From Sphaerisporangium krabiense (lineage in GTDB: Bacteria > Actinomycetota > Actinomycetes > Streptosporangiales > Streptosporangiaceae), in the NCBI RefSeq assembly GCF_014200435.1, contig NZ_JACHBR010000001.1, positions 1,612,001 through 1,676,000 on the forward strand: DNA of 64,000 bases, read 5' to 3'. The first letter of the stretch is position 1. Every line of letters begins with the position of its first letter. The translations under genes were made by a program, and so were the position numbers. Of this stretch, positions 2,387 to 16,002 are shown piece by piece. The notes beneath the pieces are model-generated. The model was not told the DNA's origin. It searched no databases and saw nothing but the letters and a program-made list of their open reading frames with translations.

Positions 2387-3598
2387 ATGCGGACACTCTC
2401 CCCACGCCTCCTGCTGATCGGCAGCGCCGCCTTCGCAGGCCTCGCGGTGGTGGTGCCGGTGCTGCTGTCCGTCCTAGGAGACGTGCCCCCGCTCGCGGCG
2501 GTCCAGCTCGCCGCCACGCTGCTCGTCCTCGCCGCCGCCGTCGCGATCGTCGCGGGCGTCCGCAGGACCGACGGCAAGGCCCTGCGCATCGACACCAGGA
2601 CCAAGCGCCAGGACACCGCGCTGACGCGGACCGAGCGCGACCTCGCCCGGCTCGCCACGATCCTGGACGGGCTCGCCGGACGCCTGGAGGAGGCCGCGCG
2701 CCACCAGTCCGGCTCCGTGCTCGCCGCGCTCGGCGAGGACCGCATGGCCCTCGCCACGCAGGCGGGCCGCCTGGACGAGCTGGCGGAGTCGGTGGCGCGC
2801 ATCGACGCCGTGGTCCTGCGGAACGCGGACGGCCTGCGCGAGCTGCGCGACCTCGTCCACGACCAGACGGCGGGCGGCGTCGCCCAGACCGTGCGCGAGA
2901 TCGGCGAGCGGCTGGACGCGCTCGGCGGCGAGGTCCGCGACGGGCACGCCGAGCTGGCGGGGGCCGTGCGGCAGAACTACGCGCAGCTGGAGGCGCTGGT
3001 CGACGTGCGCGCGCTGCTCCAGCCGCGCGCCCCGCTGCCGCGGCTGCGCGGCTGGGCGGCCTCGCCGGACGTGCTGCGCCTGCTGGTGGAGCGGGTCGCG
3101 GTCGACCACCCCAAGATCATCGTGGAGTGCGGCAGCGGCGCGTCCAGCGTCTGGCTCGGTTACGCCGTCCAGCGCTTCGGCGGCGGCCGGGTGATCGCCC
3201 TGGAGCACGACGAGCGGTTCGCCCACTCCTCCCGCGATCTCGTGCTCGCCCACGGGTTGCAGGACGTCGTGGAGATCCGCCACGCGCCGCTCACCTCGTG
3301 GCACGACGGCGACGAGGTGATCCCCTGGTACGACACGCGGGCGCTGGACGACCTCACCGACATCGGGCTGGTCTTCGTGGACGGCCCGCCGGGGGCCACC
3401 GCCCCGCTGGCGCGCTATCCGGCGCTTCCGGTGCTGCTGCCCCGCTGCGCGCCGGACGCGTGGTTCGTCCTGGACGACGGTGCGCGTGCCGCCGAACGGG
3501 AGATCGCCGACCGGTGGCTCGCGGAGTTCCCCGAGATCACCGGCTCCTCCTTCCCCGCCGAGAAGGGAGCGATGGTGCTGAGGCGGACCGGCCGATGA
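2387..3598 (+). CDS. Membrane-anchored coiled-coil class I SAM methyltransferase
   Basis: The protein has 403 residues. Two hydrophobic helices (about 7-30 and 36-55) would anchor it, leaving the catalytic part in the cytoplasm. Residues about 60-215 are charged heptad-like sequence (for example RLDELAESVARIDAV) predicted as coiled coil. The C-terminal domain has a Rossmann SAM motif, VECGSGASSVWLGYA, an acidic post-I residue in VIALEHDE, and FVDGPPG. This resembles methyltransferases in actinomycete glycan clusters; the acceptor cannot be read from sequence. The start has an AGGAA Shine-Dalgarno 9 nt upstream. It lies 55 nt after the asparagine-synthetase-like gene and is probably co-transcribed with it. 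Confidence 0.75.
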   Translation: MRTLSPRLLLIGSAAFAGLAVVVPVLLSVLGDVPPLAAVQLAATLLVLAAAVAIVAGVRRTDGKALRIDTRTKRQDTALTRTERDLARLATILDGLAGRLEEAARHQSGSVLAALGEDRMALATQAGRLDELAESVARIDAVVLRNADGLRELRDLVHDQTAGGVAQTVREIGERLDALGGEVRDGHAELAGAVRQNYAQLEALVDVRALLQPRAPLPRLRGWAASPDVLRLLVERVAVDHPKIIVECGSGASSVWLGYAVQRFGGGRVIALEHDERFAHSSRDLVLAHGLQDVVEIRHAPLTSWHDGDEVIPWYDTRALDDLTDIGLVFVDGPPGATAPLARYPALPVLLPRCAPDAWFVLDDGARAAEREIADRWLAEFPEITGSSFPAEKGAMVLRRTGR

Positions 3599-3616
3599 TC
3601 CGCGGCCTCCCCTGCA

Positions 3617-3688
3617 CGGGACGGACGACGCCCCCGGGGTCACCTCGCGCGGGACGGACGGCGCCCTGGGGCCTGCACCGGGGGGGAC
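3617..3688 (+). repeat. Imperfect 33-bp tandem repeat in the methyltransferase-glycosyltransferase gap
   Basis: CGGGACGGACG occurs at 3617-3627 and 3650-3660, with similar flanks, and a decayed third copy lies near 3680. It fills most of the 94-nt spacer. No function is evident. Confidence 0.5.
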
Positions 3689-5633: not shown

Positions 5634-7246
5634 CAGCACAGGACCGGCCCAGGCAGCCGAGGATCCGGCACAACGACTACGGCGTCCTGCGGCCCCCCGA
5701 GCCCGGCTCGTGGACCCCCCGGATGTCGGTGAGCGTGGTGATCGCCGCCTACGGCCACCAGGACAAGCTCGACCTGACCCTCGCCGGGCTGGCCGCCCAG
5801 ACCTACCCGAGCCACCTCATGGAGGTCGTCGTCGTGGACGACGGCACCGTCCCCGCCCTGCGCCTGCCGGAGATCGTCCCGGAGAACACCCGCCTGGTCA
5901 CCACCGAGCCCGGCGCGCGGGGCCGTGCGAGCGCCCGCAACACCGGGCTCGCCCTGGCGGACGGCGACGTCGTCCACTGGCTCGACGCCGACATGGTCGC
6001 CTTCCACGACGAGGTCGAGGCGCACATGCGCTGGCACCACCTGGCCGGCTACCTCGTGGTCATGGGCTACGTCCGCTTCGTCGACCACGAGCCCGGGACG
6101 CACACCCCCGCGCAGGTGCGTGACGCCGTCGCCGCGCACGCGACCGAGACCCTGTTCGACGAGGCCGCCAGCGAGCCGCACGCCTGGATCGTCGATCTGG
6201 CCGCGCGTACGGACGGCCTGCGCACCGAGCGCGACCTGGCCTACCGGGTGCACGTCACCAACGCGGCCTCGGTGAACGCCGGGCTGCTGCGGGCCGCCGG
6301 GCCGCTGGACACCGGGCTCGTGCTCGGCGAGGACAGCGAGCTCGGCTACCGGCTCGCGCAGGCCGGGGCGGCGTTCGTGCTGGCCCCCGAGGCGCGCACC
6401 CGCCACCTCGGCGCGTCGATGATGATGCGCGACGGCGAGCAGGTGCGGCGCTACAACGACGCCTTCGTGCCCGACCACATCCCGGTCATGCGCTGGCGGC
6501 GCACCCACCCGCGCCGCCAGTGGCTGGTGCCGTACGTCGAGGTCGTGATCGACGTGTCCTCTGCGCCGTACGAGGACGTCAGGGCCACCGTGGACGGCTT
6601 CCTGGCGAGCTCGCTGGGCGACCTGCGGATCACGCTCGTCGCGCCGTGGGGGTCGGTGCGCGAGGAGCGGCGCGACCCGCTCGCCAGCCCGCACCTCGAC
6701 CTGCTGCTCGTCCGCGGCCTCTACCGGGCCGAGCCGCGCGTCCGCCTCGCCGAGCACGTCCCGGGCTCCGCCGCGCCCGTGCCGTACCGGCTGCTGTGCC
6801 CGGCGGGCTGGGTGCCGGGGCCCGAGACCGTGCTGCGGCTGGTCGAGGAGGCGGCCGAGCACGGCTGCGGGCTGGTCAGCGTGGCCCTGGACGAGACCGA
6901 CGAGGTGATCGCCGCCCGGCTGGAGCACACCGGGGCGTTCGCCAGGGCCGCCCTGGTCGTGGCCCCCGGGGAGCCGCTCGACTCCGCCGTGGACGACGTC
7001 GCCGGCACCCGCTGGGCCGACGGCGCGACGCTGGGCTTCCTGCCCGCCGCCGAGGCCGAGCCGCCCAAGCGGAGGAAGGCCGAGGACCCGGCGCTCAGGC
7101 GCGAGGTGGCGCGGCTCAAGGCCGAGAACGCGCGCCTGGCGGAGGAGCTCGCCGCGCGCGCCGAGGAGCCCGAGAAAGGACCCGCCCCGCATGGCCGAGG
7201 GCCGGCGCCGCGCGGGCCGAGGGCGCTGCTGCGGCGCCTGCGCTGA
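5630..7246 (+). CDS. Family 2 glycosyltransferase with C-terminal coiled coil
   Basis: The protein has 538 residues and starts at a GTG that shares bases with the previous stop (GTGA). A GGAG lies upstream. It opens with a short basic tail, then the GT2 domain: SVSVVIAAYGHQDKL, VVVVDDGT (nucleotide), RGRASARNTGL and the metal-binding HWLDADM, with an acceptor-side LGEDSELGYR motif near residue 240. About 200 residues of uncertain fold follow. The C-terminus (about 485-525) is a charged coiled coil (LRREVARLKAENARLAEELA) with a basic tail. Coiled coils also occur in the methyltransferase upstream and in the enzyme at 33809, which suggests a common complex. Sugar and acceptor are unknown. Confidence 0.82.
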   Translation: MTAQDRPRQPRIRHNDYGVLRPPEPGSWTPRMSVSVVIAAYGHQDKLDLTLAGLAAQTYPSHLMEVVVVDDGTVPALRLPEIVPENTRLVTTEPGARGRASARNTGLALADGDVVHWLDADMVAFHDEVEAHMRWHHLAGYLVVMGYVRFVDHEPGTHTPAQVRDAVAAHATETLFDEAASEPHAWIVDLAARTDGLRTERDLAYRVHVTNAASVNAGLLRAAGPLDTGLVLGEDSELGYRLAQAGAAFVLAPEARTRHLGASMMMRDGEQVRRYNDAFVPDHIPVMRWRRTHPRRQWLVPYVEVVIDVSSAPYEDVRATVDGFLASSLGDLRITLVAPWGSVREERRDPLASPHLDLLLVRGLYRAEPRVRLAEHVPGSAAPVPYRLLCPAGWVPGPETVLRLVEEAAEHGCGLVSVALDETDEVIAARLEHTGAFARAALVVAPGEPLDSAVDDVAGTRWADGATLGFLPAAEAEPPKRRKAEDPALRREVARLKAENARLAEELAARAEEPEKGPAPHGRGPAPRGPRALLRRLR

Positions 7247-7309
7247 ACCTTTTTCGGATATCGGCGCGGATCACAGAAGCCGGTATGACCAGAGAAGGGA
7301 ATCGCAGAC

Positions 7310-7315
7310 GATACT
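7310..7315 (+). promoter_or_regulatory. Possible -10 box of a leaderless promoter (DUF3151 gene)
   Basis: GATACT ends 6 nt before the ATG at 7322. The only purine-rich run (AGAAGGGAA) is over 20 nt away, too far to act as a Shine-Dalgarno. The conserved A2 and T6 of the -10 element are present. Confidence 0.35.
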
Positions 7316-7321
7316 GTCGTC

Positions 7322-7741
7322 ATGGAATCGCACGAGAACCTCCTCGCCGGCCCGCCGCCCACCCTCCTGCCGGACAACCCGGAAGCGAGGCAAGCGCTGG
7401 AGTCCGGTGTCAAGGCCAGCGATGTCGCCGCGCGCTTCCCGGCTTACTCCGGAGCCTGGGGGGCGCTGGCCGACGAATACTTCGCCGCCGGTCACGCCGT
7501 CACGTCGTACGCCTTCGCGCGCACCGGGTACCACCGGGGCCTGGATCAGCTCCGGCGCGCCGGCTGGAAGGGGCACGGGCCCATCCCGTGGGACCACGCG
7601 CCGAACCAGGGGTTCCTGCGCTGCCTGCACGCGCTCGCCCGCTCCGCCCAGGCGATCGGCGAGAAGGACGAGGCCGAGCGCTGCTCCCAGTTCCTGCGCG
7701 ACAGCAGCCCGGAGGCCGTCAAGGCCCTCAACTCGGCGTAA
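7322..7741 (+). CDS. DUF3151 family protein
   Basis: The protein has 139 residues, is soluble and has no signal peptide. It matches the actinobacterial DUF3151 family: an N-terminal ENLLAGPPPTLLP segment, then alanine-rich TPR-like helices (WGALADEYF, SYAFARTGYHRGLDQLR) and the conserved GWKGHGPIPWDH followed by NQGFLRCLHALARSA. Function is unknown. In other actinobacteria the gene lies next to fba and purA, which suggests a housekeeping role linked to central or purine metabolism. It appears to have its own leaderless promoter. Confidence 0.9.
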   Translation: MESHENLLAGPPPTLLPDNPEARQALESGVKASDVAARFPAYSGAWGALADEYFAAGHAVTSYAFARTGYHRGLDQLRRAGWKGHGPIPWDHAPNQGFLRCLHALARSAQAIGEKDEAERCSQFLRDSSPEAVKALNSA

Positions 7742-11126: not shown

Positions 11127-12477
11127 CCACGACTCCGCCCCGCCCCATGACCAGGCATCCGGCCCCCGGCCGCGCTCACTCGCGGACCGGGGCGAGACCC
11201 CCCCGGGATCCTGGAGCGACGGGCACGGTCAGATCCGTCTCTTCGACCAGGTGGACGAGCGGGCGGCGCCCACCCCGCAGGCCGTCGCCGTCGCGTTCGA
11301 CCAGGCACGGCTCACGCAGGCGCGGCGGCTCGCCGGGCTGACCAAGAAGGACCTCGCCGAGCGGGTCGGCGTGACCCCCGCGGCGGTCGGGCAGTACGAG
11401 ACGGGCGCCACCCACCCGCGTCCCGACCTGGTCCCGCGCCTGGCCGAGGTCCTCGGCGTGCCCATGGCGTTCTTCCTGCCGGGCCGCCCGCACGCGAAGC
11501 TGGACGGCTCGATGGCGCACTTCCGCAGCCTGCGCTCCACCCGCGCCCACCAGCGGGCCAAGGCGGTCGCGTTCGTCGAACAGGTCTGGGAGCTCACCCA
11601 CGCCCTGGAGAAGCGGGTACGGCTGCCGCAGGTCGACCTGCCGGGCTTCTCCGGCGGAGAGGTCCACTCCGGCGTCGAGCTGCCCCGCGACCCGGCCGCC
11701 GCCGCCCGCGAACTGCGCCGCCACTGGCGCCTCGGCACCGGCCCCATCCCCCACCTGGTCCGCCACATGGAGGCGCACGGCATCGTCGTCGTCCTCCCGC
11801 CCCCGGACGAGGACGCCACCACGGTGGACGCCTTCTCGACCTCCCAGCTCCCCCGCCCGATCGTCGTCCTCACCGCCAACCGCTTCGACGACATCCACCG
11901 CTACCGCTTCACCGCCGCCCACGAACTCGGCCACCTGGTCCTGCACGGCGACACCGCCGCCGGCGACGTCCAGCAGGAACGCGAGGCCGACACCTTCGCC
12001 GCCGAGTTCCTGACCCCGCGCGAGAGCATCCTCCCCGCCCTCCCCCGCCGCCTCGACCTGCGCCGCCTCGCCGAGCTGAAGAACATCTGGGGCGTCTCGG
12101 TCGACTCCCTGCTCTACCGCTGCCGTGAGCTCGGCCTGCTCTCCGACTCCGCCGCCGGCCGCGCCTACCAGCGCCTCGCCACCCTCCGCGACCAGCCCGG
12201 CTTCGCCGGCGAGCCCATCACCGGCTACCCCGGCGAACACCCCGTCCTCCTGTCCCAAGCCTTCGACCTCGCCACCACCCGAACCGGCCTCACCCTCCCC
12301 GCCCTCGCCACCCAACTGGCCTGGCCCCTGAAACGAACCCGCCAACTCCTCTCCCTCCCCGACCCCCGCCCCGAACTCCGCCTCGTCCCCGGACCGGCAC
12401 AGATCGCAGGAGGCGGTCGGCATGGCCATGCCGGCCACGGCGACATCGACACCGAAGCCACCGCGATCACCGACTGA
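11113..12477 (+). CDS. XRE-family HTH regulator fused to ImmA/IrrE metallopeptidase
   Basis: The protein has 454 residues. After a disordered 40-residue leader, an XRE helix-turn-helix occupies about 56-115 (LTQARRLAGLTKKDLAERVG, then TPAAVGQYETGATHPRPDLV). The ImmA/IrrE zinc-peptidase domain has HELGH at 270-274 and downstream Glu residues in EREADTFAAEFL as the third ligand. In this family the peptidase often inactivates a repressor in response to stress or phage induction. The C-terminal 100 residues are a second helical domain. The ATG at 11113 overlaps the stop of the previous gene and has no Shine-Dalgarno, which fits coupling. The last 700 bases are markedly C-rich on this strand. Confidence 0.88.
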   Translation: MTTRDHDSAPPHDQASGPRPRSLADRGETPPGSWSDGHGQIRLFDQVDERAAPTPQAVAVAFDQARLTQARRLAGLTKKDLAERVGVTPAAVGQYETGATHPRPDLVPRLAEVLGVPMAFFLPGRPHAKLDGSMAHFRSLRSTRAHQRAKAVAFVEQVWELTHALEKRVRLPQVDLPGFSGGEVHSGVELPRDPAAAARELRRHWRLGTGPIPHLVRHMEAHGIVVVLPPPDEDATTVDAFSTSQLPRPIVVLTANRFDDIHRYRFTAAHELGHLVLHGDTAAGDVQQEREADTFAAEFLTPRESILPALPRRLDLRRLAELKNIWGVSVDSLLYRCRELGLLSDSAAGRAYQRLATLRDQPGFAGEPITGYPGEHPVLLSQAFDLATTRTGLTLPALATQLAWPLKRTRQLLSLPDPRPELRLVPGPAQIAGGGRHGHAGHGDIDTEATAITD

Positions 12478-12514: not shown

Positions 12515-12532
12515 CGAACCGTCCTCCGAGCG

Positions 12533-12636
12533 AGGACCTCGCCTCCGCGCCCGGGGGGCGCTCCGGCTCGGGCTGTATTTCCCAGGGGGCTCCGCCCCCT
12601 TCGGCCCCCATTCGAAGGCTCCGCCTCGGACTCCGA
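12533..12636 (-). repeat. Repeat family, partial inverted copy
   Basis: This stretch is the reverse complement of part of the 183-bp repeat at 12770-12952. They share CCTCGCCTCCGCGCCC and GGGGGCTCCGCCCCCTTCG. Together with that copy it forms a large inverted arrangement downstream of the sulfatase gene. Confidence 0.8.
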
Positions 12637-12769
12637 CTCTCACATTCCTCAATCGGCAAGTGCGTACGAACCGGGACATGACACTCGTGTCGCCATCCGA
12701 TGGCACGCAGTCGGGTTCGCTCTGCCTGTGGGCGACGGTATGGCCTGAGGCAGTAGGTGGACGGCTGCG
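12637..12769. other. Spacer between inverted repeat copies
   Basis: This 133-bp stretch has lower GC than its neighbours. No gene, RNA or conserved motif was seen. Confidence 0.5.
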
Positions 12770-12952
12770 TCGAATACGCGTCCCGCGATGCGAGCGGTTC
12801 GGAGGGCGAAGCCCTCGGAACGGGGGGTCGAAGGGGGGCGGAGCCCCCTTGGGGGACACAGCCCGAGCCGGAGCGCCCCCCGGGCGCGGAGGCGAGGACC
12901 GTTTCGGGGACGCACGGTTTCGTGGGGTGTCGTATCGGACGGGCTGGTCGGG
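12770..12952 (+). repeat. 183-bp repeat, first direct copy
   Basis: It runs from TCGAAT-CGCGTCCCGCGATG to TGGTCGGG. The second direct copy at 14997-15179 has the same length and shares long identical blocks, including GAGGCGAGGACCGTT and CCCGCGATGCGAGCGGT. It contains a GGGGGCGGAGCCCCC-type hairpin. No coding frame is conserved between copies. The two direct copies bracket the sulfatase gene. Confidence 0.85.
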
Positions 12953-13074
12953 GGTCAGGGTGGCGGCGGGCAGAGACTCGTCAGACGCGGATCGGCGCGG
13001 GTGCGCCGAAGGCTTGCCTGTGGTGCGGGCGGGGAGCGGTAGTCCTCATCCCTGCCCGCACCGCGATGGGTCCT

Positions 13075-14646
13075 CTACTGCGGCGGGTTCTCTTCCGCGT
13101 CTCGCAATGTCTGCCCAGAGGCGTTCTTGAGTCTGGTGACCCAGGTGTCGAGCCTCTGTTTGAGCGTGGGGTCGGCGCTGTTGTAGGAGTTGTCGAGCTG
13201 GTGGGGATCGGCGGACAGGTCGTACAGCTCATGTTCGCCGGTGTTGTAGGCGACGTAGTTCAACGCCGCGTTCACGCCGAGCGTGTTGGGTTTGGCCCGC
13301 AGGCCGACGTAGACGGGGGCGCCTCCGGAGGCGAGCGCTTGTGCGTCTCCGGGATCTTGGGGTTCCAGCAGGTTGTTCAGGGTGTTGGTGTTCAGGGTGC
13401 TGGGTCCGGCATGCTCGTTGAGGAACGCCAAGCGCCACCGCGATGGTGTGGTGCCGCGCAGGAACGGCACGAGTGAGCGGCCGTCGACGAAGGCGGGCGC
13501 GGTCGCTCCGGCCAGTTCGGCGAAAGTCGGTGCGAGGTCGACGTTGAGGGTGAAGGCGTTGACGACCGCCCCGGCGGGGACGCCGGGTCCGCGGATGACC
13601 AGCGGGACGTTGAGATCTTCCTCGAAGGCGGTGTTCTTGCCGGAGTTCAGGCGGTGCTGGCCCTGGTGGAAACCGTTGTCCGACGTGAAGACGATGTAGG
13701 TGTTGTCGAGTACGCCTTGCGCCCGCAGAGTGTCGATCGTGTCCTGGACGAGGTCGGTGACCGCGCGCAAGGATTCTCTGCGCTTTTCGTAGAAGGCGTC
13801 GATGTTGTTGATCTGGGCGGCGGTGAGCTTGGGCTTGTTGCGGATCCAGGCCGGCTTGTCGCTGACGTCGTCCTCGTTGAAAGACGGAGTGCGCGGAGCC
13901 TTGGCGTTGGGGTAGATGCCGTCGTAGCGCGGCGGCGGCGTCGCCGGTCCGTGTGGGATGTAGGGGGCGACGTAGGTGAAGAACGGCTTGTCCGGATAGT
14001 TGGTGGTGGTGTTCTTGATGAACGTGGTCAGCCTGCGAGAGATCACGTCAACGCCGTAGTCTGACGATGCGCCGCCGAAGTGGACGGTCGTGCCGTTGTC
14101 GTTGACGTCGTAGTTGTACTCCGAATACGGGCTTCCACCGTTGGGGCTGAACCAGCGTGTCCACCCAGGCGGAATGTAGGTGCTACTGGGCGCTCCGTTG
14201 GGGTACCCGTTGAGGTATTTACCGAAGAACCCGGTGCGGTACCCGGCGCTTTGCAGCCAGGTGGCGACGGTCGAGTTCTCCAGTCCTCTGCTGTAGAAGG
14301 ACTGGAATCCGCCGCCGGAGGCGGCCTCGTTGGTGTAGATGCCCGTGTTGTGTGCGAACTGCCCGCGCAGCGTGGACACTCGCGACGGGCAGCACAGCGA
14401 CAGTTCGACGAACTGCTTGTTGAATGTCGTTCCCTGACTGGTCAGGAGTGTCTGGAGCCCGGCGTCCTTGCCGAAGACGTCCTCGTTGAGGTCATCGGTG
14501 AGGATGAAGACGATGTTGGGCTGGGTCGTCGCCGCCGACGCCGGCGAACCGTCGAGTTTCACACCCGCGTAGGTGATGCTCGCGGATGCGATGAGCAGAG
14601 CCCCCAAGAGTTTCGATCGGTGACGATGTGGCTTGTGGGCGTTCAT
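13075..14646 (-). CDS. Secreted sulfatase (arylsulfatase / N-acetylglucosamine-6-sulfatase type)
   Basis: The 523-residue protein starts with a Sec signal peptide (about 1-39, LLGALLIASASITYAG then ASAA). The sulfatase domain follows: IVFILTDDLNED binds calcium, and CCPSR at 85-89 is the CxPSR signature whose Cys85 is converted to formylglycine. Later motifs are GYRTGFFGKYLNGYP and VFTSDNGFHQGQHRL. It should hydrolyse sulfate esters of extracellular glycans. The order of motifs resembles glucosamine-6-sulfatases, but the substrate is not proven. The start has an AAAGGG site. Codon use and GC are clearly lower than the neighbours (many GTT, TTG, AAC-TTG combinations), and the gene lies alone between two direct repeats, suggesting acquisition. 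No formylglycine-generating enzyme gene is in the window. Confidence 0.9.
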   Translation of the reverse strand: MNAHKPHRHRSKLLGALLIASASITYAGVKLDGSPASAATTQPNIVFILTDDLNEDVFGKDAGLQTLLTSQGTTFNKQFVELSLCCPSRVSTLRGQFAHNTGIYTNEAASGGGFQSFYSRGLENSTVATWLQSAGYRTGFFGKYLNGYPNGAPSSTYIPPGWTRWFSPNGGSPYSEYNYDVNDNGTTVHFGGASSDYGVDVISRRLTTFIKNTTTNYPDKPFFTYVAPYIPHGPATPPPRYDGIYPNAKAPRTPSFNEDDVSDKPAWIRNKPKLTAAQINNIDAFYEKRRESLRAVTDLVQDTIDTLRAQGVLDNTYIVFTSDNGFHQGQHRLNSGKNTAFEEDLNVPLVIRGPGVPAGAVVNAFTLNVDLAPTFAELAGATAPAFVDGRSLVPFLRGTTPSRWRLAFLNEHAGPSTLNTNTLNNLLEPQDPGDAQALASGGAPVYVGLRAKPNTLGVNAALNYVAYNTGEHELYDLSADPHQLDNSYNSADPTLKQRLDTWVTRLKNASGQTLRDAEENPPQ

Positions 14647-14996
14647 ACCGCACCCTTTCTCGGGATACCTGGTCCATCGCTTGATGTCGATGAAACGTGC
14701 CGAGACATTCCAGCCTCGAACAGGGTGAAGTCCATCCAGGCGTGCTGGCGGCTGCGGGCACAGAAGGTCGCGCCCGAAAGGGAGGTCGGAGAATCAGCGG
14801 TGGCGAACCGGGCGACACAAGGCGCTGCTCACGCGCGCCAAGTCGATGTGACGCCGCACCGTGGCGTGGAAGCTGTGTCCACGCCGGGCGGTCGATGTCA
14901 TGACCACATAGAATCCGAATTATCCCTACCGGTCAAGTGGGTAATTTCCCGCTCGCCGCTGAACCAGTGCCGCATCATGCGACGTTCGCCCTGTTA
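14647..14996. other. Spacer upstream of the sulfatase
   Basis: The 350-bp stretch is relatively A/T-rich and presumably holds the sulfatase promoter. No clear -10/-35 pair, RNA or open frame of note was identified. Confidence 0.4.
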
Positions 14997-15179
14997 TCGA
15001 ATGCGCGTCCCGCGATGCGAGCGGTCCGGCGGGCGGAGCCCTCGGATCGAGGAGTGAAGGGGGACGGAGTCCCCTTGGGAAACACAGACCGAGTCGGAGC
15101 GCCCCCCCGGGCGCGGAGGCGAGGACCGTTGTGGGGACGTGAAGTTTCGCGGGATGTCGTATCGGATGGGGTGGTCGGG
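14997..15179 (+). repeat. 183-bp repeat, second direct copy
   Basis: It is collinear with 12770-12952 over its full length, with scattered substitutions. It ends about 25 bp before the TPP riboswitch. Confidence 0.85.
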
Positions 15180-15202
15180 CGGGGTACGCTTCGGGTGGAC
15201 GA

Positions 15203-15292
15203 AACGCGGGAGCCTGGCGCACCGGGCTGAGAGTGTGGCTGTTCGGCCGCAGACCGCTCGAACCTGACCGGGTCATGCCGGCGTAGGGAGCT
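15203..15292 (+). ncRNA. TPP riboswitch (THI element) upstream of tenA
   Basis: Conserved blocks appear in order: CGGGAGCC, GGGCTGAGA, then a variable P3 arm, GACCGCTCGAACCTGA, and CCGGCGTAGGGAG. These are the thiamine-pyrophosphate-binding elements. The last block also contains the AGGGAG Shine-Dalgarno for the ATG at 15298, so ligand binding should hide the ribosome site and shut off translation when TPP is plentiful. Confidence 0.95.
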
Positions 15293-15297
15293 TTTCC

Positions 15298-16002
15298 ATG
15301 GAGACATCCGGGTCCATCCCCGGTACGTACCAGTCGTCGCGGTCGTTCAGTGCGGAGCTCTGGGAGGCCATCACCCCCATCTACACGGCCATCCTCGACC
15401 ATCCGTTCATCACGGGGCTCACGGACGGCACGCTGCCGCACGACGCCTTCCGCCACTTCATCGAGCAGGACTCGCACTACCTGCGGGACTACGCCCGCGC
15501 GCTGGCGCTGTGCGCGGCGAAGTCGCCGACCGAGGACGATGTGCGGGCCTTCGCGCACGACGCGGTGAGCGCCATCGCGGCCGAGCAGGAGATGCACGCC
15601 GAGTTCATGTTCCAGCTCGGCGGGTCGGCCGAGGAGGCCGAGAAGGCGCCCGTGGGACCGACCACCCGGGCGTACACGAGCTACCTGCTGGCCACGGTGT
15701 ACGGCGGGTCGTTCCTGGACGGCCTGGCGGCGGTGCTCCCCTGCTACTGGATCTACGCGCGGGTCGGGACGGCGCTGCTCGCCGAGTCGTCCCCGGACGC
15801 GTTGTACGCCCGCTGGATCGCCACCTACGGCGACCAGGCGTTCCAGAGCGTGGTGCGCCGCGTGGTGGAACTGGCGGATCGGACCGGGGCGGAGGCGACG
15901 CCGGCCCAGCGCGCCGCCGCGCTGGGCCACTTCGTCACCACCGCCCGCTACGAGTGGATGTTCTGGGAAGCGGCGTGGCGGCGGGAATCATGGCCGGTGT
16001 GA
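15298..16002 (+). CDS. tenA: TenA-family thiaminase II / aminopyrimidine aminohydrolase
   Basis: The 234-residue cytoplasmic enzyme salvages thiamin breakdown products by hydrolysing aminomethyl- or formylaminopyrimidine to HMP. The TenA_THI-4 helical fold is evident: FIEQDSHYLRDYARALAL near 54-71, EQEMHAEF near 96, the catalytic Cys149 in LPCYWIYARVG, and the active-site Glu in ARYEWMFWEAAW near 219. Length is normal. It stands alone after a TPP riboswitch, so it is repressed by TPP. It converges with corA. Confidence 0.95.
   Translation: METSGSIPGTYQSSRSFSAELWEAITPIYTAILDHPFITGLTDGTLPHDAFRHFIEQDSHYLRDYARALALCAAKSPTEDDVRAFAHDAVSAIAAEQEMHAEFMFQLGGSAEEAEKAPVGPTTRAYTSYLLATVYGGSFLDGLAAVLPCYWIYARVGTALLAESSPDALYARWIATYGDQAFQSVVRRVVELADRTGAEATPAQRAAALGHFVTTARYEWMFWEAAWRRESWPV

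Follow-up and report, generated by a model that had tools for sequence, protein, structure and literature searches.

A largely genus-restricted family of terminator-like repeats as probable edges of exchangeable gene slots in Sphaerisporangium

The DNA considered in this study is a stretch of 64,000 nucleotides (the window; G000:C1:1612001-1676000) from the 8.53-Mb genome of Sphaerisporangium krabiense (Streptosporangiaceae), referred to below as G000. It contains a sulfatase gene bracketed by copies of a repeat, two direct and one inverted, and the whole lies in a slot between two backbone genes, one for a helix-turn-helix (HTH) protein of the XRE type with an IrrE/ImmA-like peptidase domain and the other tenA (Table 1). 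A sequence-only reading of the window took the repeats for a mobile unit, akin to a miniature inverted-repeat transposable element (MITE), that captured or delivered the sulfatase. I will argue for a different interpretation, which I consider probable but by no means assured: that the repeats are lineage-restricted, terminator-like extragenic palindromes that edge or mark exchangeable gene slots and perhaps promote the exchange. The closest sister genome used for comparison, G008, has backbone DNA 95.6-95.8% identical to that of G000 on both sides of the slot.

Table 1. Features of the sulfatase slot and its borders (positions in the window)
Feature	Position	Strand	Basis or remark
Left backbone gene, HTH (XRE type) and IrrE/ImmA-like peptidase domain	11179..12477	+	Pfam HTH_3, Peptidase_M78
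Inverted copy of the repeat (core), immediately behind the left backbone gene at its 3' end	12532..12615	-	Covariance model, 94.7 bits
First direct copy, 183 bp (core 12817-12902)	12770..12952	+	Right end faces 3' end of sulfatase gene
Sulfatase, slot occupant	13075..14646	-	PF00884, E = 1.2e-44
Second direct copy, 183 bp (core 15044-15129)	14997..15179	+	Edge of right backbone
Thiamine pyrophosphate (TPP) riboswitch, start of right backbone, upstream of tenA	15196..15306	+	Rfam RF00059, 60.5 bits
Right backbone gene, TenA/THI-4 family	15298..16002	+	Pfam TENA_THI-4, E = 3.3e-46

The three copies lie where the sequence-only reading had placed them. The direct copies are 86% identical over 183 bp, and the inverted one is partial, with 12534-12625 matching positions 36-131 of the repeat at 86% identity by BLAST. 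A BLAST search of the whole genome with the 183-bp repeat recovered the second direct copy with E = 1.2e-55 and the inverted copy with E = 3.8e-23. Two of the accompanying claims hold only in part. The 183-bp unit stands as a local direct repeat but not as a conserved unit, the conserved part being a core of about 60-90 nt; complete or nearly complete 183-bp matches were found only here and at the counterpart locus in G008. The repeats were also said to have no coding frame, and a composition-based gene caller indeed called no gene within them, but open reading frames (ORFs) do cross them. Aligned copies from several genomes show the order of the core: a first hairpin of variable stem, TGGGAAACACAG, GCCCGAGCC-GGA-GGCGAGGACC and, last, a short stretch rich in T. 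The copies in the window have the long form, in which an extra hairpin is inserted within the last palindrome. The exact core GGGGRCGGAGYCCCC was tried as a marker of the family and abandoned as too strict, because its 3 matches in the genome all fall within the window. The TPP riboswitch starts 16 bp past the second direct copy.

The repeat occurs well beyond the window, with at least 17 BLAST matches and at least 33 covariance-model matches in its own genome. The model counts, which are lower bounds (150 candidates were scored per genome), come to at least 37 in G008, at least 45 in G007 and at least 8 in G009; the remaining seven congeners have 0-6. A short motif gave 25 matches in G000, 31 in G008 and 112 in G007, and its reversed pattern gave none in these three and 0-2 in the other eight. 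Under stricter filters, a family-wide sample had model matches in 7 of 120 genomes, four of them Sphaerisporangium and the other three, from two other genera, with one match each. The 183-bp DNA query matched 12 of 60 relatives: eight within the genus (G000 included) and four others weakly, at E values of 1e-4 to 1e-3. When one mismatch was allowed, the short-form motif matched once in each of 15 genomes, out of 295 others sampled from the class, and nowhere in the rest; the reversed control motif had a single match in 12 of the same 295. The family is near control level in those genomes and largely confined to Sphaerisporangium.

Neither the 183-bp unit in phage and plasmid collections nor the exact short-form motif in viral contigs found a match, and a plasmid or phage origin was dropped. 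So was membership in a known RNA family, since at the Rfam gathering score the repeat went unmatched in the window and in 18 of 20 chosen loci (where TPP alone and ribosomal RNA (rRNA) alone were matched, respectively). Judged by title and abstract, none of the top-ranked openly accessible papers describes the family, a coverage that largely excludes the subscription literature. There is a further subtype that the model misses, the ACAGCCCGAGCGGAGCGAGGACC type (L239:13061-13114 and 15503-15560; L058:5950-6007), whose copies form an inverted pair on either side of an HTH/DUF5753 gene of G008.

The sulfatase can be followed apart from the repeats. Its orthologues in G008, G007 and G010 (97%, 93% and 85% identical, respectively) are at other places, and the 16, 10.8 and 17 kb fetched around them gave no model match to the repeat. 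The segment in common with the sulfatase locus of G008, window 13072-14946, is 96.5% identical, close to the backbone value, and ends 119 bp and 50 bp short of the two direct repeats. To judge from these alignments, the sulfatase is placed differently between lineages, and what the lineages appear to share is the gene with its upstream region, not a repeat-bounded segment. The claim that a MITE-like unit captured or delivered the gene was rejected on these grounds: three congeners carry the sulfatase with no repeat detected nearby, an outcome that the sequence-only reading had itself named as a refutation, and the shared segment excludes both copies. In a search for an empty site, the 2-kb right flank of the G008 sulfatase found short, weak matches alone in G000, and four sets of junctions read by eye contained no clean repeat-free empty site and no target duplication.

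The slot as a whole varies among the congeners, as seen in a comparison made without G010 (whose left gene lies outside the fetched stretch) and G007 (which has no tenA match). The flanking genes are 159 bp apart in G004 and 123 bp apart in G005, a nearly empty slot, and the slot measures 509-551 bp in G003, G001 and G009. No covariance-model match to the repeat was found in the slot stretches of G001-G006 and G009. In G008, backbone homology on the left stops at window 12389 and resumes on the right at 15169, and the slot is occupied by an inverted copy, an HTH gene (with a sub-threshold match to tetratricopeptide repeats), a plus copy and a pair of DUF433/HTH-like and PIN-like genes. Window 12707-12953, the first direct copy with its flank, aligns with L048 8584-8830 of G008 at 84.7% identity. 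The sequence-only reading is supported in two points: the repeat recurs elsewhere in the genome, and the locus varies, being nearly empty in two congeners and holding other genes in G008. At its 3' end the XRE/ImmA gene has 29 or so codons (window 12390-12477) that are not common to G008, and the G008 homology stops a few bases before the repeat; from the aligned sequences, the edge of the slot seems to have altered the C terminus of the protein.

A comparison of G000 with G008 took in 120 intergenic intervals with conserved genes on both sides, drawn from 18 pairs of loci. A difference in length of more than 200 bp is seen in 11 of the 12 intervals with a copy and in 8 of the 108 without (Fisher p = 7e-10). 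When only intervals of at least 250 bp in both genomes are considered, the figures are 11 of 12 and 2 of 32 (p = 1e-7), and with the window locus removed they are 10 of 11 and 8 of 108. The twelfth copy-bearing interval kept its length and had its content swapped. These counts, which replace an earlier and smaller test (9/9 vs 4/31), exclude L237 (25.1 bits), a weak match among ten. Two pairs that differ beside copies, L155/L148 and L163/L146, were dropped by the gene-mapping filter and added no copy-bearing interval, and of the rRNA-operon loci L160 alone contributes an interval. The rRNA operon flank of L160, at 4.84 Mb of C1 in G000, matches 7.71 Mb in G008 (L139), on the other replication arm, which suggests an rRNA-mediated rearrangement or a difference in assembly.

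The dropped pairs illustrate how copies and insertions can be arranged. The insertion in L155 (G000), which carries an HTH/DUF5753 gene, is flanked by a direct duplication of 537 bp (3133-3669 and 7013-7549, 99.4% identical) that contains the 3' part of a backbone gene along with a repeat copy and ends 8 bp past that copy. Its counterpart in G008, L148, has the duplicated stretch once. A related contrast, more mosaic, exists between L163, with one copy, and L146, with two copies 3.2 kb apart.

The contents of the slots were surveyed through 110 ORFs, for which each slot other than that of the window supplied its longest frames, six at most and irrespective of overlap. The commonest families are HTH_31 (11), DUF5753 (9), HATPase_c_2 (7) and HTH_3 (7), with DUF397 also present (2), and no transposase or integrase is among the 25 listed of 27 Pfam families. 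Regulators of the HTH_31/DUF5753 kind are the commonest occupants of repeat-edged slots (L044, L145, L146, L155, L163, L239). HTH/DUF5753 proteins, DUF397 and such ATPases make up what I take to be the WhiJ/AbaA-type regulator sets of streptomycetes. A porphobilinogen deaminase-like gene (L046:7312-8307) lies in a repeat-bracketed slot of lower G+C in G000, in a part for which L049, the counterpart in G008, offers no match.

The positions of the copies were taken from 99 model matches in the fetched loci, of which two in L127, duplicates of L048, were removed to leave 97; identical sequences were collapsed to 95 copies for folding and loop parsing and to 96 for the terminator scan. On the right side of the core, the nearest called gene presents its 3' end in 62 of 79 copies and, within 100 bp, in 32 cases versus 4, as compared to 54 versus 38 on the left side, counts that are not fully independent, since G000 and G008 share many loci. 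The remaining 18 of the 97 copies have no called gene on the right. They form arrays behind seven rRNA operons, beginning 174-365 bp behind the 5S rRNA. The arrays (L139:3402-4709, L147:3413-4342, L152 and L158-L161, in G000 and G008) have 1-5 model-detected copies about 185-780 bp apart, and the number of copies varies between operons.

Read from the neighboring gene, the core presents a hairpin and, behind it, a T-rich tail, GCTGTGTTTCCC. A terminator rule that demands at least 5 T flags the gene-sense strand in 26 of 96 copies, compared to 5.4 in shuffled sequences, and the other strand in 1, compared to 1.0. With 4 T, the rule flags 48 of 96 against 22.4 expected on the gene-sense strand and 6 against 10.8 on the other. 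Four of the five copies in one rRNA array are flagged. This strand-specific signature, as read from the sequences, supports a role as terminator, without amounting to proof of termination. The orientation of the copies also follows the replication arm, at 42 of 55 loci (p = 0.0016; those of G000 and G008 not being independent) versus 126 of 228 sampled genes on the leading strand, a modest bias and possibly a by-product of gene orientation.

The hairpins themselves fall into patterns. A script parsed the 97 copies into 26 of the long form and 61 of a short form, with 10 unparsed. In 25 of the 26 long-form copies the second hairpin is paired throughout (G-T allowed), a pairing achieved through five types of stem. 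The first hairpin could be parsed, as a perfect stem of at least 5 pairs with a loop of 3-4, in 58 of 95 copies, and in 49 of these the loop has G as its first and A as its last base. In 73 of 95 copies, folding is better for the plus-sense core than for its complement. G..A hairpin loops are very stable in DNA, and a role in DNA rather than RNA, which these loops might suggest, was considered and set aside; the literature gave no support that was used.

Taking position, structure and variability together, each copy comprises several G+C-rich hairpins and a conserved A-rich linker and in most cases is placed at the 3' end of a transcription unit, whether gene or rRNA operon, in fixed orientation. 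Because a hairpin and then a T-rich tail (GCTGTGTTTCCC type) are encountered when the core is read from the unit, the core most probably terminates transcription, and perhaps does so from both sides. The family has multiplied in a few Sphaerisporangium genomes, where it sits at the edges of intergenic slots with contents exchanged between close relatives, often as inverted, outward-facing copies that bracket a slot. The slot in the window, edged by copies between the XRE/ImmA gene and tenA, is one such, with the sulfatase as one of several alternative occupants. In that position the copies could shield backbone genes from variable DNA and might help breakage or recombination there, through structure or through sequence identity.

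Several results weigh against this interpretation. Folding energy barely beats that of shuffled sequences, with mean z of -0.42 and -0.15 for the two strands in the first 60 of the 95 non-identical copies and z = -1.11 for one copy in a separate shuffle test, and with z-scores so weak it was rejected as proof of structure. RNAalifold, run on a mixed alignment, gave 8 pairs of which one is compensated, a weak covariation probably due to the mixture of long and short forms. All three copies in the window go unflagged by the terminator rule, as do 70 of 96 copies overall at the setting of 5 T. Of the 79 copies next to a called gene, 17 face a 5' end, which for the second direct copy in the window is that of tenA; at least 8 of the 17 are the second member of an inverted pair bracketing a slot, and these 17 copies are not explained as plain gene terminators. 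The slot reaches 5.4 kb in G006 and 5.2 kb in G002 with no model match to the repeat there, and as it is variable even among congeners in which no copy was detected, variability does not require the repeats. Finally, the interval test, whose loci were picked around copies or around the window, gives association and not cause: the repeats may bring about exchange, may be spared by it or may share with it the same tolerant sites.

The last of these possibilities, that selection leaves repeats and foreign genes in the same tolerant intervals and that the repeats neither promote exchange nor regulate, draws on just this lack of direction and on the variable slots without a copy. I think it unlikely, given that intervals without a copy so seldom vary when they measure 250 bp or more in both genomes (the 2 of 32 above) and that the orientation toward gene ends and the strand-specific terminator signature argue for some function. 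It is quite unlikely, in my estimation, that the copies are attC-like or Campbell-type sites, at which circles, each with one gene and one copy, would insert into a copy already resident and so give the layout copy-cargo-copy. That layout is found around the sulfatase in the window, and the single copy in L148 set against the duplication in L155, with the related contrast of L163 and L146, speaks in its favor. However, the copies diverge from one another, the insert that G008 has to the right of its plus copy is not followed by a second copy, and the families listed for the slot ORFs include no recombinase, although no search was aimed at integron integrases.

Two explanations would have the repeats mobilized by a transposase. 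One invokes classical repetitive extragenic palindromic (REP) elements, spread by a RAYT (Y1) transposase that acts on single-stranded hairpins. The present repeats resemble these in being palindromes with kept pairing, outside called genes and in dozens of copies (more than 100 motif matches in G007), and the better folding of the plus-sense core, the G..A loops and the bias with replication arm fit as well. The transposase does not follow the copies: Y1_Tnp (PF01797) has no match in G007, the genome with the most copies, nor in G009, a single partial match each in G000 and G008, and near-complete matches in copy-poor G004, G005 and G006. The partial match of G000, at C1:465997, is about 12 kb from the nearest copy found (453956). 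Furthermore, no GTAG-type head precedes the hairpins in the aligned or listed copies, where the preceding sequence is mostly TCGAA or CACAG. A RAYT-driven REP was rejected for want of a Y1 transposase in G007, and I consider it very unlikely. The other explanation is the original one, a MITE-like or compound element with the repeats as its ends. Direct and inverted copies do bracket cargo here and at other loci, and the members of a pair are mutual nearest relatives in L048, L049, L051 and L143, though not in L044, L045 and L046. Against this are the sulfatases with no repeat detected nearby, the segment shared with G008 that excludes both copies, the absence of transposases and integrases from the listed families of slot ORFs, the failure to match plasmids, phages and viral contigs, and the lack of target duplications in the junctions read, all of which render it highly improbable.

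Where bacteria accept foreign genes without damage to themselves is an open question, and here a sequence-defined, terminator-like repeat, largely restricted to one genus, predicts variable places between two sister genomes. Should termination prove to be linked to exchange, the pair G000 and G008 would offer a direct system in which to study insulated gene ends as insertion hotspots. Carried further, one might imagine a dispersed system of gene exchange in which the hairpin terminators are themselves the exchange sites, with circles or single strands, each bearing one gene and one copy, integrating at resident copies by means of an enzyme not yet known. I would give this idea a slim chance, but if true, each insertion would arrive already insulated from its neighbors.

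The repeat may be compared with several known systems. What defines REP elements is a GT(A/G)G head, together with a RAYT gene that has inverted REPs on its two sides (PMC2817692, PMC8266576). The REP and bacterial interspersed mosaic elements of enterobacteria and pseudomonads (including REPtrons with RAYT) are likewise extragenic palindromes in many copies, grouped in inverted or direct order and with pairing kept. The Sphaerisporangium repeat differs from them in the GTAG head and the Y1 transposase, neither seen (the latter in copy-rich G007), and in its multi-hairpin core with an A-rich linker, its preference of orientation for gene 3' ends and its arrays behind rRNA operons. Palindromic structures, many in 3' untranslated regions, have been noted to yield stable RNA fragments (PMC4681348). 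MITEs and mobile insertion cassettes are also short noncoding repeats that bracket non-transposase genes, but here no related autonomous element was seen (among the listed families of slot ORFs and in a genome-wide search for Y1_Tnp only), no target duplication was seen in the junctions read, and the sulfatase occurs with no repeat detected nearby. Like intrinsic terminators, some of them bidirectional, the repeat lies close behind genes and 5S rRNA and, in the copies flagged by the terminator rule, has a hairpin and a T-rich tail on the gene-sense strand; it departs from them in that one related sequence recurs at dozens of places, largely in a few genomes of one genus, and in that the T tract is imperfect and followed by a G+C-rich second hairpin. 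Integron cassettes with their attC sites, lastly, offer the likeness of a structured site beside a gene, exchangeable occupants and the layout copy-cargo-copy, but the Sphaerisporangium copies are dispersed rather than gathered in one array.

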